Part shown: positions 1,950-27,635 of the stretch, in pieces
Layout: every line of letters begins with the position of its first letter
How positions within the stretch are numbered: position 1 is the first letter of the stretch
Assembly (NCBI GenBank): GCA_022264855.1
Contig: JABYQU010000008.1
Location: forward strand, 620,001 to 684,000
Origin: Lenzites betulinus
Taxonomy: Eukaryota > Basidiomycota > Agaricomycetes > Polyporales > Polyporaceae
DNA: 64,000 bases
Direction: 5' to 3'
Translations under genes and position numbers: made by a program
The notes under the pieces: model-generated
What the model was told of the DNA's origin: nothing
The model's input: only the letters and a program-made list of their open reading frames with translations
Database searches by the model: none

Positions 1950-1958
1950 CGTACTCAC
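1950..1958. repeat. Target-site duplication, left copy (9 bp)
   Basis: The sequence CGTACTCAC directly precedes the left inverted repeat, whose first bases are CAGGCTCC. The identical nonamer directly follows the right inverted repeat at 8429-8437. On the minus strand it reads GTGAGTACG, which looks like a fungal 5' splice site. Confidence 0.85.
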
Positions 1959-2273
1959 CAGGCTCCTAAAACCATCCGTCGTTGGTGAGTTCACGTTCCC
2001 GCATCCGAGCGGAGGGGTTTATGTAGATTACTATATACGGCATGTTTTAAAATGAAATATAAGCGCCATTAGTCATATGTTCTGCGGAGGGTTGCCTATT
2101 ATATCAGTAGTAAGGGAAGTGTACTCACCAAGACGGCTGGCCTTTTTGTCCCTCCGGGGATACGCCGAGAACATACGCGAGGTGAGGCGCCCAAGAAATA
2201 CCGCAGAGGCGCTCAGAATTAATCCATTGTCGCTTGCGGTCGCGTATGCGCGTAATAATATTCTGTGCACAGC
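1959..2273 (+). repeat. Left terminal inverted repeat of the transposon
   Basis: It begins CAGGCTCCTAAAACC and matches the reverse complement of 8115-8428. The inner 153 bp (2121-2273) are identical to the other end by eye. The outer part carries scattered mismatches and a 1-bp length difference. The repeat stops about 190 bp before the start codon of the DUF6589-like gene and so probably contains its promoter. Confidence 0.9.
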
Positions 2274-2463
2274 CGTGGGGGTGTTGTTGACAGGTTTGCG
2301 TTGAGGCGGCACACCACGCAGAGCTTTATGTGTGTTATGAGGCCTCGCCCTATCATATGCTTTCAGAATAGAAGATGGAGGCTTCTAATCCATATGGCGT
2401 GCTTCGAATTGCAACCATGCGAGCAACGGTTTCAGCCTCAGAGCACTACTAGTAGTCGGTGCC

Positions 2464-5406
2464 ATGATCATACCCGCCGCTCAACTTAATTCACTATGCC
2501 AGACTCTAAACCTGCGTGATGCCACTGTGGCTGATCTAGTTATGTCTTTACTTGCCGTGGATCCTGCCCCCGTCGCCGCCCATACCTCAGCACTCGGTAA
2601 CCCGGTCGCAATATTGAATGTCCTCGATCAGCATGCATCTACTCAGTTGTGCACACGAACTTGGGCCTGTCACCTTGTCACCGAGCTCTGCCGAAGTGAG
2701 ATCGTGTCTCTAACGAGCCCGGAAGCAGAGCTACAGTTCAAGGCCAAGTCTGCTACCGCCGCACAGCTTGAGGCGTTTGACATGGGAAACCTTGCAAAAC
2801 AAGTCCGCGCCACAGCTCCGACACTATGGTCAATCCTCCGTACCCTCCTTGACGCCGACTCCGAGAAGCACACACAGAGGCGGAAGAAATACAGGGCGAT
2901 ACGGAAGAAAAAACGCGCTGAGCGAGCCCCGAGACAGCCCCCCGACGAAACGAGTGTCACGCAAGCTCAGATGATGGACATCGACGCTCCCCCGGGGGCC
3001 ACCCCTTCCGGATCTATGACTGATCAGACAATAGAGTGTACACCTGACGCCGATGAAGCCTTGTACTGGGGAGAGGACGCAAGGGGAGTGGACACGGACC
3101 CCATAACACAGGCGACCGCGCCGATGGCACCGATGGCGAGCGCTGATGGAGATGATGAAGACGAGGACCTCTACTGGACAGACATGGACTTCCAGGCGTT
3201 GGACATGGAGGAAGATCTGCTGGTGGAAGGGGTAGACGATGAGGACATGGAGCTGATGGAGACAGAACGATGGGATAAGATCCTTACCTTAGTGAGTACT
3301 ACTGGGCTTGCCGCTCTATTGACGGCGGACATTGATCTGATTTGCTGACATGTTGTTCAAGAAGTCGGTTGTCATAGCGAGCATGCTAGCGCAGAGTACC
3401 AATCAGCGATGCAACGCCTTTCAAAGCACCGTCGGAGTATACCTCCATGCTTGCCGGGCATCCGAGTCCGTTGTCGAGCTCTTGTCACGGATCGGAGTGT
3501 CGATCTCCAGATCGGCCATTGACAGCAGTATAATAAGCCTGTCAAACGAGTCACACATCAGCATGGAACGACTGGGGACAACTTTGCGGGCGGGGTATGC
3601 GTATGACAACTTCGATCAGGAGGATAAGCATGTCGTGCCTACCACTGAGAAGCCCGGCGGCAACCTCCTCCACCTCACCTCTGGGACAATCCTACGGCTT
3701 GATCACGATGTAACCTTGGACGATCTGCGATGCTCGAATGCCCTTTGGGAGAAATCGCGAGTCAATCCGGAGAACCGTGGGGAGACGCATGCGCCAGCTA
3801 GTTGGACCGACCTCATGAGCATCTATCCGGACGAGCTTGACAGCTCTAACCTCACTCGCCGCAACCGCTTTGACCGCTGGAAACTCATATATGATCTTGT
3901 GCATCACGGGCCAGCGTACTTCCATCGCTTCAGCACCGATCTTGGAGAGCCTGAGGTAGTCGAGCAGATCCCTATTGTGAAGTCGCAGCAGGTCCCTGTT
4001 GAAGGGATGGACATCAATCAGTCTACAGTACAAGGAAATGCGGACGCACTCGAGGCTTTATTCCGTCAGGGAGGAGTCGGAGATGTCGCGGAAACCCCGG
4101 GTGTCACACCGCTTGGAGACCATGTTGTGCTAGTTCACGGAGATCTGGCAACATGCGAGCGCGTTCAGAGTCTACAGGAGTCCCGCTCGGTCGAGAATAC
4201 ACCATGGCGTCGCCTCCAACATGTCGTCTTTGTCCTTGGCCTGTTTCATCTGAAAATGGCGTGCGCGGACGCAATCTGGAAGATCTTTATCAAACCGAAG
4301 TCAGCACACGAAGATCCGACCAGTCTGATGTCTTACGTGGGAGAGATACGGCCGAAGGAGACGGGAAAGATCGGGAGCAAGCCTGGCTTCCGACGGATGC
4401 ATGAAGTCATCCAGCACGTCGGAATTGCATCACGACTTGATTGCTGGAGGGTGGGAGTGGCCCAGGCGTGCAAAATCGATAGCCTCGAGCGGTGGGCAGC
4501 TACTGAACCGTCCTGGGACGACATCGTTTCGTTAGCAACTCAGCTTGTCCGGACGTTTGTGGACGACACAAGCATTTCCCGGCTCCGCTCTCAGGCACGC
4601 CGTGATCAGCAATGGGAGAACACGCTCTTACGGGAGAAGTACTTCCTGCTGTATGAAGAGTTATCATATGCTATGAACGCCGGTGACATAGGGCGGGTCG
4701 AGGCGTGCTTCATGCCCTGGGTGTTTATCTTCCGCGGCTGCGGCAAGCATAAATATGCGACACAGATGATCTGGTTCTTGCATAACGTGCATCGAGTATA
4801 TCCTCCCGGCCTGAAGTAAGCATTGCTACACCTATTGTATATTATAGAAGACTTATCTGATGAAATCCAGGCGTGCCATTCGCATGAACATCCTCTGTAA
4901 TCCTACGGGAAAGAAGCATCATTTCCGAGCGATTGATTGGTGGGTGGAGCATAATAATCTGTATATCAAAGTGAGTGCTCGTACTAGGCGTTATAACACT
5001 CCTATACCACGACTTACTGACAATCATTGAACCGTAGCGGATCTACGGTGGAGCGTTCTCGAACCGCACCAAGAGACGGATTTTGAAGCAGGCCGCACTC
5101 GTTGAAGTCTACAAGAATATACGCATCAGCTTCGAAGAAATATTCGCATTAGATCACCGCACGTACAAGCACGCTGCTCCGAGGTTGGAGAGGACATTGA
5201 GGAAGCTGTGTGAGTATATGAAAGATGCGAACGCACATGTCATCATGCCGAATCGAAGCTCCTCGCATGTAATACCTGACGCGATGGAGGCGGGGGTTAT
5301 CAAACTTATGGCAATTAGTATGGGTGTAGACAGCCCTGGGGATCCTGATGATGCGGGAGATGGCGATGCGGAGGTAAATAGTAATGAAGGAGACCTAGAT
5401 GTGTGA
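2464..5406 (+). CDS. DUF6589-like protein, candidate DDE transposase of the element
   Basis: Predicted exons are 2464-3291, 3362-4815, 4871-4970 and 5038-5406, joining to a 916-residue protein. Introns are 55-70 nt with good donors; the first has a TGCTGAC branch site. The N-terminal 276 residues hold a basic patch (RRKKYRAIRKKKRAERAPR) and a long acidic stretch rich in D and E, and look disordered. From about residue 350 the protein has features I know from fungal DUF6589 proteins: AYDNFDQ (about 357-363), VHGDLATC (about 535-542), and near the end RAIDWWVEHNNLYIK followed across an intron by RIYGGAFSNRTKRR. Aspartates at about 358 and 537 and glutamate at about 787 make a plausible RNase-H-type D-D-E triad. 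That is my inference; no catalytic role is established from this sequence. It converges on the helicase gene, with 18 bp between the stop codons. Family confidence is high, transposase function moderate. Confidence 0.85.
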
Positions 5407-5424
5407 CGGGATATACTACTAATA

Positions 5425-8142
5425 CTATGCATTATGTCTATAATACTCAAACTGAACCTGGACCTCATGCAGGGGTGGCATCGACGCACTTGCTGCGGAA
5501 TTTGGGGCGACGTTCTCGTTTCGCGCTTCATTTCCTCCTCCAGCGCGGGCAGGACACCCACGATTGGATCCTAAAATCTGATTAGTTTCCGAACGAGTGA
5601 GACGAAGATAAACTTACGTATATGGCCCAGCTGGCCGCATGCGCTACAGGTTGCCTGCTTGCGCTTCCGTGCAGGTGGGTTTTGCTCCGGCTGCTCCGGC
5701 TGCCCGTCCGTGTTTTCGGAGCCTCTGGAAGCAAGGATGTTTACAGGCGGGATAGGTGGGATAGGTATAGGTGGCGGCGGCGGTGGTGGTGGTGGTGGGA
5801 AGTGGTCATGGATGAGGGCGAGGAGGGTGTCACCGTGGAGGTTGAAGAAGCTGGCCTGCCATACAATCTCTCGCCTGAGGTGCTCCAGCGTGGGCAACTT
5901 GCCGGCCTGAGCGCAGTCGATGATCCGTTCGAGGGAGGTGAGAGGGAGGAAGATGTTACCCCCAAAGTTTCGTGCCGCAGCCGCACCAAAGACTTGGGCG
6001 GTGCGCTCGTCCCGCCAACTGAAAAGCGCGTCGCGGAGGGCGGCAGTTGGGCGTGTGGCTTCATAAGGTTTAATCGCCGACTTTTTCATCTTGCGTGAAG
6101 CGCTAGCGGTCGAATCCAAGAGCAGAAAGATAGCCTCGAAGGCCGCTGGTTGGCACAAGTCGCAGCAGACGGTGGAGGGCTTTGGGGAGCAGCGAGCGCA
6201 GCCAACAGCCGTGGATGTGTTGCACTGAATGTGGTCGTACGCTAGGAGGCAATAGGAAGACTATCAGAATAAGGCGTTGACTGTATATGGGAACTGAATA
6301 CGTACTCCGCTTGTCGTTTGAGTAGTAAAGTGTCAGAGGTTTCCGTCGACAACCCAAGCCTCGCCGCTGTGCATTTATTAAATCGTCGAGTGCAGGTTCA
6401 ATCACCTTGCTTCGAGAAGCACGTGGGGCACGCGGGCGGGTGTCTGTATTGGCGCTTTGTCCGTACAGGGAACGACGGTCCTCATCTGACATCATGCCAT
6501 GTGCGTCTCCCGGCTGAGTCTCTTCAACAACCACCACCGCATCCTCTACGGCCCCCCCCTGCACACCATCTACCTGTCCAGCATTGGCAACACTACCTGT
6601 ATCATCCACCTGAGTCTCTCCGTCGACGATCTCGTCCCCCATTGCAACATCGGGATCCTCGTCTCTACCGCTTGCTTCCTCATCGGCCCGCAAGCCTTGC
6701 CCTGCTTGTTCTGACGTGTTGGAAGGATGGATATCGGGGCGATGGGGCCGTTTGGATGGTGAGTTCTGCACTGTTGTACGTTTTCTCTTTCGAGATTGCT
6801 GCTGCTTGCGCTTCTCGGCGCGTGTCGCCTTCAACTCTCGTTCCTCGTCGAAGTAGTCCTTTTCTGCGAGAAGGATCGCGAACGCGAATGCGCCTGCCGC
6901 GCGTGCTGCTCGTCCGAAGCGCTGCCAGAGAGCGTTGGTAGTTGAGGGGACCTTCCACTGCACGATGAGCTGAATGTCCGGAAGGTCGAGGCCCTGTAGT
7001 CATGTTAAATATACACATGCAGAATTAACATAATACTCACCATTCCGAAAGAGTCGGTCACACAGAGACCATAAGTCTCGTTATCCTTGAATAGATCACA
7101 TTCTTCCTCTCGGTACTGCGGTGTCATGATCGAATGGAAATACCGAATCTTCTTGCTGAGGGCAGCAGGTAGACGACTTCTCAGGTATGCCGCCGCTGCC
7201 TCTGACTCCTTTGTGCTCTCAAAGAAGACAAGGAATTTGGGTGGGGGGACATCGCCTTCACGGAACGCCTCCGGGATGAGAAAGTCAAGGTCCTTGAAGG
7301 ACGAGGCTGCATGCTGCATCCGGTGCACGGTAATCCCTATCTCAGGACGGTCATTTGATCTCAGTATATACTCGGTATGTCCCTTCCGCAGGTGCATGGC
7401 GTCCTTAACCTCACGGAGAACAACGACAGGCATGGTCGCAGATGGCATATAGAAAGGGATCGTTCCGGAGATGATGCGGCGGAGGTCTCCGAGGGATTTG
7501 TACTCCTCACGGAAACCTGCCCACTGTGTGATGCAGTGTGCTTCGTCGAATACGATGTAAAGGATCTTCGCTGCGAAAGCTGGCTTCTCCCAAAGTTTTG
7601 CACATAGGCCATCCTCTTGCATGATGATTTCCGGGCCCAGTACGAGAACTTGATAGCGCCCGGCTTCGATGTCCTGTGTGAACATGATCAATCTTTTTAG
7701 TTTAAGGTACCACATTGAATATTCGAGTACTTACGTCGAATGTCCTCTTGTTTGCATTATGAGCATCCACCGCCACCGCACTCACTCCCGCCTCCGCAAG
7801 GATGTCGGTGTTCTGTTTCCCGAGCAGATTCAGTGGTGTGACCACTATGGCAATCTTGTCCTCTCCATCTTCAATAGCCATAAGCAGCGGGATCCAGAAG
7901 GACAACGTCTTGCCGGAACCGGTGGCAGCGACGGCCACAACATCATTCTGTCTCTCTCTGATTGCACGGGCGACGCGAATCTGAAAAAGACAAGGGCGCT
8001 TGCCGAATCTCTTCTCGACAAGCCCGCGTATGCGCTCAGTGGACCATCTAGGAAGAGAAGGCATGCACAAGCTCAGACGTCTGATGGAGATAGAGCTTTG
8101 CGAGATGCGCTCAAGCTGTGCACAGAATATTATTACGCGCAT
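5425..8142 (-). CDS. RecQ-like superfamily II helicase with C-terminal zinc knuckle, carried by the transposon
   Basis: Predicted exons are 7735-8142 (or from ATG 8064), 7041-7673, 6306-6993, 5618-6241 and 5425-5570, all in one frame: 832 residues from 8142 or 806 from 8064. I prefer 8064 because 8142 lies inside the inverted repeat. Numbering from 8064, the helicase motifs are complete: Walker A AATGSGKT (46-53), VVTPLNLL, DEAH (153-156), SAT, LVFFES, and motif VI QRFGRAAR (345-352). A long charged linker follows. After it come a cysteine-rich segment (about 551-580, including CARCSPKPSTVCCDLC), a run of ten prolines, and a CCHC-type knuckle (about 749-764, CSACGQLGHIRSNRGC) split by the last intron. 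Such helicases would unwind DNA during or after excision. Neighbour and inverted-repeat context tie it to the element and argue against a role as a cellular repair RecQ. Function in transposition is inferred. Confidence 0.88.
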
Positions 8143-8428
8143 ACGCGACCGCAAGCGACAATGGATTAATTCTGAGCGCCTCTGCGGTATTTCTTGGGCG
8201 CCTCACCTCGCGTATGTTCTCGGCGTATCCCCGGAGGGACAAAAAGGCCAGCCGTCTTGGTGAGTACTCTTCCACTACTACTGATATAATAGGCAATCCT
8301 CCGCGCAACATATGACTAATGGCGCTTATAATATTTTCTGACATACCATATGCGGTAATCTACATAAACCCCCTCTCCTCGGATGTTGGAACGAGAACTC
8401 ACCAACGACGGATGGTTTTAGGAGCCTG
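8115..8428 (-). repeat. Right terminal inverted repeat of the transposon
   Basis: Reverse complement of 1959-2273, ending GGAGCCTG next to the 9-bp duplication. Its inner 153 bp (8115-8267) are identical to the left copy. An ATG at 8142, in frame with the helicase, lies inside the repeat, so the repeat probably supplies promoter and leader for that gene. Confidence 0.9.
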
Positions 8429-8437
8429 CGTACTCAC
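8429..8437. repeat. Target-site duplication, right copy (9 bp)
   Basis: CGTACTCAC, identical to 1950-1958, directly outside the right inverted repeat. Removing the element and one copy gives the presumed empty site. Confidence 0.85.
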
Positions 8438-26400: not shown

Positions 26401-27635
26401 CCGCCAAGCGCGCTGAGGATGCTCGCAAGCTTGCTGCCGAGACCCAGAGGCGTACCGAGGAGGAAGCACGACGTCTGGCGGATGAAAGCGCGAGACGGCG
26501 GTCCGCCGAAGAGGAGGCCAGGAAGGCGCTTGAGGAGGAAGGGCATCGGAAGGAGATGGAAGCGCGGAAACGCGCTGAGGAGGAGTATAGGCGCAAGGAG
26601 GAGGAGGCCAAGAAACGCGAGGATGCAATTTTGGCGGACGTCCTTCGACGCTCACAGGAGGAGCACCGACGCCAGGAAGAGCAGCGGAAGAGGCAGAACA
26701 GCGTGGGCAGCTCGTCCGACACTGGCCGTTCTGCGGGATATTCATCAGCAGCATACTCTACGCCTCGTCCAGTTCCTACCCATGGCCCGTCTATCTATAC
26801 TGGACCATCAGCGGGTGATCGCAACAGCACCGCGTCCTCGTCGAGCTATAGCAGCTCCAGCAGCTACTCCGCGGCCTCAGCACGGTCGACGTCCACCGGT
26901 TACACCTCCTCCTCCAGTCGTGCTACCGCCATACCGACTCCTGGTACTGCTCCGATGCCTAGTCCTAGTGCGACTTCCAGCTCGAAGGGCGCATGGAAGA
27001 CATCCTCCTTTTCGCAGCCCGGCACCAGTCCAACCACTCCCAATCGGCCTAGCCCAAGCAGTCCCTATCGCACCGCTTACGGCACCGCCGCCCCACAGTC
27101 ACCCTCTCCCGCTAGTCATGCTCGGCCTGCGACGTCCCACAATGCAGAGGAAGAGTGGGCTCGCCGCCAGGAAGAACAAGCGCGCAAGCAATTCGAGCAG
27201 TTCCAGCGAGACCAGGAGGCGCAACAACGCCGTGTGGAAGCGCGGGCAGTAAAGCAGATGAGCAAGGAGGATGTCATCAAGCTTTTCGATGACCACGAAC
27301 GTCGATGGGCGCGTCTTGCAAATATGGACATCCTCGGTTGGCAGTCGTTCCCTTGGCCGATGCTGAAGCCGCCGAAGGACCCTGAGCAGATCACATATGC
27401 CGAAGTCCAGGCGTACGTCTTGTCGCCTCATCATCCGGGGGAGAAGACGTCGAAAGAGCGGATCAAAGACCACTTACGCAAGTGGCATCCCGACCGCTTC
27501 GAGACAAAGCTGTTACCGAAGGTCCGGGAGGAGGAGCGCGAGACCGTGAAGGAAGGCGCAGGAGCCGTCGCGCGACACCTTAACAAGGTACTTGGCAGCC
27601 TCTCTGCGAGCGCTGAGAACGGCCTGTTTGGATAG
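23457..27635 (+). CDS. Large coiled-coil protein with C-terminal HPD (J-domain-like) segment
   Basis: One uninterrupted frame of 1392 codons starting at ATG 23457, which is remarkable in this intron-rich neighbourhood. Order of regions: a helical N-terminus (about 1-140); a long disordered stretch rich in P, S, R and Y (about 140-600) with a run of nine glycines (about 548-556); a very long highly charged coiled coil of E/R/K/A (about 600-1085, with KEEEARKKEEEAKR-type repeats); a serine-rich segment (about 1085-1220); and a compact C-terminal domain. The last part reads ITYAEVQAYVLSP, RIKDHLRKWHPDRFETKLLP and KEGAGAVARHLNKVLGSL. The HPD tripeptide at about 1344 between two helices resembles a J-domain and the C-terminal part of NFKBIL1-like proteins. 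A cytoskeletal, trafficking or Hsp70-cofactor role is possible but unproven. Confidence 0.85.
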   Translation: MTTLLAPIAEQNVGPAPVIDDDVEPDAQWKEALRSRIERGLQSMVDKVRQERDSGLRGLREGTYEYEAVMRTYHASMDHVRRIAEDQFSQELKIARFERSLEQGKEVEGEEFAAFRREQQAIWDKIKKDGAERPPGRQGPAVVEGPPGQNGEPTSEPARASGEHDAREGPSIPYRDSHPVARAPGPEYRPRDRTQSGGSDQVGGVPGSYGSRPARSRGNSSVLAADLELPSPGPSPYDQSSIGRQGLSTLSRTRPQDIWLPAQSPIIKENGSATSRTFAHAASPGIPPVSPNVREGPSNDGPGRTASRAGSIRLNERPSPLGDYDASSSLPRDRFGMGSLEDRMSSRKGKEPDRSEQMSPQPTTPYEYYAPRRADSRAAMPITPVRPSLPAQSDDTYFYQASPVSARPRPDSEDREGIPVRKRSTRRSINSDQSSPENPRYIPPSSAAARPIPNKRSFNGAEYDNWPPQSGMFFGPQSPPASYATSNSRPIPRPSTNDDNPRRHSPSGPWHGSQSPPDAFPFSGHDLPFSSSPRPRYNTGSSVGSAGGGGGGGGGGRRNSNGSRSVRSRSSRQEFWGPADVSQRPLATYEEQSVASDSESEKDYGMDLDNLWRVRERQELAWTLAKEQEAAKKAKEAERLQEEARRKEEEARKKEEEAKRQAEEARRKEEEVRLRALEIQQKEEELRRREAELLQRELEAKFKEERRLREEVEARLQEEIRRRQEAEEEAKRREEAETRRRQREEAERREMEEAEKRRQEREESERIRREREDADRQEREQRERARREKEDRERREREAQEKREQAARAKREREEREREAREKEEREKERRAKEERERREKAREQELERKAKEQQEQEEKRKQLAAEREAELLQAQRAATARLEAERQQKEAALAAEAEARAQAQAEARALADAAARQREEAATRRQDESARRRSTEVSSRTSIVASQSSSDVSDDLEDPQLIRQQQIILEQIQVARAKEEAAKRAEDARKLAAETQRRTEEEARRLADESARRRSAEEEARKALEEEGHRKEMEARKRAEEEYRRKEEEAKKREDAILADVLRRSQEEHRRQEEQRKRQNSVGSSSDTGRSAGYSSAAYSTPRPVPTHGPSIYTGPSAGDRNSTASSSSYSSSSSYSAASARSTSTGYTSSSSRATAIPTPGTAPMPSPSATSSSKGAWKTSSFSQPGTSPTTPNRPSPSSPYRTAYGTAAPQSPSPASHARPATSHNAEEEWARRQEEQARKQFEQFQRDQEAQQRRVEARAVKQMSKEDVIKLFDDHERRWARLANMDILGWQSFPWPMLKPPKDPEQITYAEVQAYVLSPHHPGEKTSKERIKDHLRKWHPDRFETKLLPKVREEERETVKEGAGAVARHLNKVLGSLSASAENGLFG

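Follow-up and report, generated by a model that had tools for sequence, protein, structure and literature searches.

The window analysed here, a stretch of 64,000 nucleotides from the polypore Lenzites betulinus (positions 620,001 to 684,000 of contig JABYQU010000008.1, assembly GCA_022264855.1), contains at 1959..8428 an element of 6470 bp, called copy A, that was delimited by its terminal inverted repeats (TIRs) and the duplication flanking them. The left TIR (1959..2273, plus strand, 315 bp) starts with CAGGCTCCTA and the right TIR (8115..8428, minus strand) is 314 bp; first detected as three ungapped pieces, they share 92.7 % identity over 316 aligned columns. Directly outside the two ends, at 1950..1958 and 8429..8437, lie the copies of a 9-bp target site duplication (TSD), CGTACTCAC. 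The interior is occupied by two convergent genes whose stop codons are separated by 18 bp (5407-5424). The first, at 2464..5406 on the plus strand, has four predicted exons (2464-3291, 3362-4815, 4871-4970 and 5038-5406) and an open frame of 916 aa, and the second, at 5425..8064 on the minus strand, has five (8064-7735, 7673-7041, 6993-6306, 6241-5618 and 5570-5425) and an open frame of 806 aa, exon borders being predicted from GT..AG sites and the open frame, without transcripts. An earlier note on this DNA had described inverted repeats of 314 bp adjoining 9-bp repeats and two complete multi-exon genes converging 18 bp apart, and was accurate in each of these points; 1959-8428 is confirmed as one intact two-gene DNA transposon.

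The assignment of the two products in that note was also upheld. The only Pfam family matched by the 916-aa protein was DUF6589 (PF20231, E=2.6e-113), a family of unknown function, and no paper among those searched names it. The 806-aa protein matched DEAD (5.2e-21) and Helicase_C (2.7e-15), and a zinc-knuckle-like motif at its C-terminus scored below the Pfam cut-off (E=0.0039). Because its closest relatives among the solved structures in the PDB are WRN, RecQ and RECQ5, the label of RecQ-like helicase is correct. No nuclease family was among the Pfam matches of either protein up to E=1, apart from a Cas3-like helicase part below the cut-off.

A second copy of the element, copy B (G000:C87:612172-618640, minus strand, 6469 bp), lies 3.3 kb from copy A in inverted orientation, with flanks that differ from those of A and its own 9-bp TSD, CCCCTCGAC. 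The two copies are identical except that B has one base fewer in a run of C residues inside the helicase gene, and the helicase match is divided between two frames at this site. Unless this is a sequencing error, the helicase gene of copy B is broken, and only copy A of the pair has two open gene models. No further full copy was found when the genome was searched at the DNA level. That two copies differing by a single base lie 3.3 kb from each other suggests a recent move to a nearby site.

The end motif was then examined in the whole genome. Exact CAGGCTCCTA occurs at 75 sites, as against 128 for a reversed control, and is not enriched in itself, but 16 pairs of neighbouring sites were found facing one another at a distance of up to 10 kb, where about 0.4 were expected. 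Three of these correspond to copy A, copy B and one unit of a second family described below. The remaining 13 (L073-L085) are 314-3371 bp long and overlap no DUF6589 or helicase match. Exact 9-bp duplications, each a different sequence, flank 11 of these 13 derivatives, one of the other two having an 8-bp duplication and the other a 9-bp duplication with two mismatches; when the left flanks were compared with the right flanks of other elements as a control, 0/156 combinations gave a duplication. These results strongly indicate that a single transposition machinery is responsible for both the ends and the 9-bp stagger. They also bear on whether a cellular gene pair has come to lie inside an unrelated inverted duplication, or whether the locus is an artefact of assembly, as might be thought from the position of A and B close together and inverted on one contig. 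That explanation is scarcely credible, since A and B are each flanked by a separate 9-bp duplication and the same ends are found with duplications on other contigs; the different flanks of A and B refute the inverted duplication, and copy B together with the derivatives led us to reject chance or artefact. A 48-bp relic at G000:C48:182837-182884 is 85 % identical to an inner stretch of the TIR of copy A.

DUF6589 exons were matched 22 times in the genome and were counted as 11 loci, two on C87, three on C66 and one each on C58, C14, C64, C20, C74 and C1. The C66 loci represent a second autonomous family, with convergent genes and TIRs of 327 bp that are 90.7 % identical; it shares the end CAGGCTCCTA with copy A, and most of the remaining DNA cannot be aligned. 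They form a tandem array of three units (G000:C66:20161-40965) with a period of 6931-6932 bp, each unit consisting of the element and 689 bp from its flank. Three stretches of a Lenzites betulinus helicase protein were matched exactly on C66, three times each. Units 1 and 2 are missing the last 12 bp of the right end, unit 3 is complete and is the one recovered among the facing pairs, and no 9-bp duplication was seen at the array. Two of the short derivatives, L075 and L085, resemble this family (86 % over approximately 250 bp), and a seven-member group starting with CAGGCTCCTAAACCAGCCGTC resembles the end of copy A over approximately 40 bp, as judged from one member.

Other DUF6589 loci were searched for TIRs, both by comparing each with itself and by looking for 9-bp duplications beside 16-bp inverted ends. 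In the DNA examined at C14, C20, C64 and C58 no clear TIRs were found; C58 has an inverted repeat of 42 bp, but a weak one (81 %, E=0.003), and the end motif was encountered with one mismatch and without a partner. The gene pairs at G000:C14:853-5619 and G000:C64:4050-9012 are in divergent order, are homologous to one another and lie less than 10 kb from the ends of their contigs; no telomere repeats were present in the stretches examined by these ends. Those at G000:C20:27913-32984 and G000:C58:287026-292211 are convergent and also homologous, their DNA being approximately 70 % identical. The C20/C58 and C14/C64 pairs may be additional families whose ends differ or have decayed. Near two of these loci, other repeats were observed, namely an exact tandem repeat with a 912-bp period at G000:C64:10380-12700 and an inverted repeat, 98.7 % identical over 231 bp or more, at G000:C20:24300-24530 and 26906-27136, which is cut off by the edge of the stretch examined. 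For the earlier note, genes occurring separately and without inverted repeats would have counted against its reading, and in this genome the outcome is mixed: nine of the 11 DUF6589 loci have a helicase match nearby and two, C74 and C1, have none, and clear TIRs were found at five of the 11. Copy B, the second autonomous family and the derivatives, which share ends with copy A and, at B and the derivatives, have different 9-bp duplications, were not known when that note was made, nor was the fold of the DUF6589 protein.

When the DUF6589 profile was compared with the sequences of solved structures, only chance-level matches were obtained. The predicted structure of a DUF6589 homolog matched DDE/RNase H recombinases in the top 25 entries, and a Foldseek comparison gave a weak result; the best structural matches were the transposases of hAT (Hermes, the best of all), the P element, the IS256-type ISCth4 and Transib/RAG1. 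This resemblance makes the DUF6589 protein most likely the transposase of the element, and a DDE nature is supported by the model. The fold would place the first catalytic residue at the invariant D358 (codon at 3605..3607, plus strand) and the second at the invariant D537 in the motif HGDL (4142..4144, plus strand), and the third would be either D718 or E723 in the motif GDIGRVE (4685..4702, plus strand), of which D718 is invariant among homologs and E723 is conserved in 98 %.

Whether the helicase is instead the mobilising enzyme, with the DUF6589 protein in an accessory or regulatory role, was also considered. In its favour, the helicase is invariably the better annotated of the two, and two of the 11 DUF6589 loci have no helicase nearby, so that the genes are separable. 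However, DDE recombinases are the enzymes that make staggered insertions with a fixed 9-bp duplication, and the DUF6589 model resembles them, whereas the 806-aa protein includes only helicase domains and the weak zinc knuckle, making a mobilising helicase very unlikely.

The linkage of the two genes recurs in other fungi. At least 433 public proteins match a region of the DUF6589 protein from the window, and those with a species name, among 120 of the 433, are from basidiomycetes. At least 27 of 104 named DUF6589 proteins share a contig, as judged by equal contig size, with one of 118 helicases, a number that is a lower bound on the pairs in the full sets and gives no frequency for the absence of the partner. 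The locus numbers of nine linked pairs are one or two apart, examples being g3/g2 in Trametes cinnabarina, 014705/014706 and 004608/004609 in Cerrena zonata and 004012/004013 in Tricholoma furcatifolium, though QCA50_004425 shares a contig with a helicase that is not its neighbour. In mushroom genomes both protein types go by names like 'hypothetical protein' and 'P-loop containing nucleoside triphosphate hydrolase', in agreement with the earlier suggestion that mobile genes have been annotated as cellular ones.

Given the ends, the 9-bp duplications at independent insertions, the two open gene models and the linkage of the genes in other fungi, the element is very probably a DNA transposon that has been active recently, and its most likely kind is AcademH, a branch of the Academ superfamily reportedly defined by Kojima in 2020. 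In this reading the DUF6589 protein would be a transposase with a DDE/RNase H fold and the helicase its dedicated partner. The DUF6589 protein would recognise the ends of the long TIRs, which are led by CAGGCTCC, bind both TIRs and pair them, then cut at the ends and join them to the two target strands at positions 9 bp apart. Repair or filling of the gaps after joining, as established for DDE recombinases, would give rise to the 9-bp duplication. The part of the RecQ-type helicase is probably to unwind the ends or the insertion gaps, which would aid excision, strand transfer or repair. We infer cut-and-paste rather than copying, and the same applies to every step assigned to the helicase. If DUF6589 is indeed an AcademH-type DDE transposase, the 'hypothetical proteins' of this family, together with many adjacent 'RecQ helicases', become mobile genes and the gene counts of mushroom genomes can be cleaned up.

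Six members of the seven-member CAGGCTCCTAAACCAGCCGTC group are near-palindromes of 1455-1535 bp (L074 on C15, L076 on C31, L077 and L078 on C76, L079 on C92 and L081 on C22). Within each copy the arms show 0 differences over 645-672 bp, all 13 arm differences in L081 falling past position 672, where the limit of the arm had been set too far. In L082, the remaining member of the group, the arms are just 189 bp long (100 % identical), and this copy was excluded from the comparison of arms. Between non-identical copies the divergence was 2.0-8.5 % in the arms and 8-23 % in the central loops; L076 and L079, which are inserted at different sites, show no difference over 1465 bp. Hence, the arms of a near-palindrome change together within a copy. 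The autonomous copies, A and that on C66, retain a difference of 7-9 % between their own TIRs, and therefore the assembly can hold arm differences and homogenisation is not obligatory at each insertion. The simplest reading is gene conversion that depends on distance and acts on arms lying close together. Alternatively, the element might, during movement or upkeep, fold into a single-strand or cruciform intermediate that the RecQ-type helicase opens and in which one inverted repeat templates the other; this would explain both arms that are identical within and different between copies and the helicase as the usual partner of the transposase. It is nevertheless unlikely, as ordinary conversion between neighbouring arms of an inserted element accounts for these observations and needs no helicase, and in A and B the same 7 % TIR difference survived a recent insertion, which argues against an obligatory copying step. 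The Galileo foldback elements of Drosophila likewise have long TIRs that are 98-100 % identical within a copy and have been proposed to recombine and convert (PMC3573991), though Galileo is an animal element of the P superfamily and the derivatives described here have AcademH-like ends and are from a fungus. With two near-identical autonomous copies, short derivatives that carry ends of this kind and, on C31 and C92, identical derivatives at different sites, this genome is a testable system.

Of the known systems, hAT (Hermes), the P element, ISCth4 and Transib/RAG1 are alike to the model of the DUF6589 homolog in structure, and no sequence relation to them was found. Duplications made by hAT and P elements are 8 bp, and no hAT, P, IS256-type or Transib/RAG1 element is known to carry a RecQ helicase. 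For hAT, a length of 8 bp has been given as the usual one (PMC12730594). Despite the first rank of Hermes among the structural matches, the 9-bp duplications found here do not fit hAT.

Kolobok elements duplicate TTAA. Their KolobokH group could be put forward in place of AcademH, as the element here likewise combines a RecQ helicase with a probable DDE transposase in a fungal host. KolobokH is confined to fungi, encodes a RecQ helicase and has a C/DxxH motif between the second D and the last acid (PMC9587614). However, the gene order, the duplication and the histidine motif all differ. The duplications here are 9 bp and not TTAA, the helicase has a gene to itself on the opposite strand and, when the conserved histidines in the same interval of DUF6589 were examined for C/DxxH, only those in G-L-F-H and R-R-M-H were found. 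KolobokH was rejected on these grounds and is highly improbable.

Within the Academ superfamily, the nuclease of AcademX is of XPG type, and neither protein of copy A gave a Pfam match to a nuclease family up to E=1 other than the Cas3-like helicase part. AcademX elements are flanked by duplications of 3 or 4 bp and AcademH elements by 9 or 10 bp, a difference tied by the author to the nuclease of the one and the helicase of the other (PMC10045372). AcademX does not fit, as the duplication here is 9 bp. Copies A and B and 11 of the 13 derivatives have exact 9-bp duplications, a superfamily 2 helicase lies within the same TIR pair in copy A and in the C66 family, and the basidiomycete host and low copy number are also those of AcademH, which has been described as low-copy elements of Basidiomycota (PMC10799480). 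Putative non-autonomous Academ elements have been noticed in another mushroom (PMC8290104). Membership of AcademH is likely, not proven; the likeness, in which no difference was seen, is one of duplication length, helicase, host group and copy number. The restriction of the comparison to these features, the lack of any Pfam match other than DUF6589 and the lack of a paper found to name that family would favour a helicase-bearing lineage separate from Academ, which would make 9-bp duplications of its own and represent a new superfamily with a DUF6589 transposase. Such a lineage is unlikely, as duplication length, type of helicase and host group all agree with AcademH and nothing extra would be explained by it. 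The earlier note had regarded the 9-bp duplication as a departure from the 3-4 bp of Academ elements that might mark a distinct lineage or an unusual branch; in light of the published AcademH duplications there is no such departure. Fungal Academ elements with internal DEAD/RecQ-type helicase domains, frequently annotated as host genes as they are here, are also already in print (PMC6416283), though that text does not contain 'DUF' and the passage on them gives no duplication length. Since AcademH makes duplications of 9 or 10 bp and fungal Academs with RecQ helicases have been published, a distinct lineage is not needed to explain the element.
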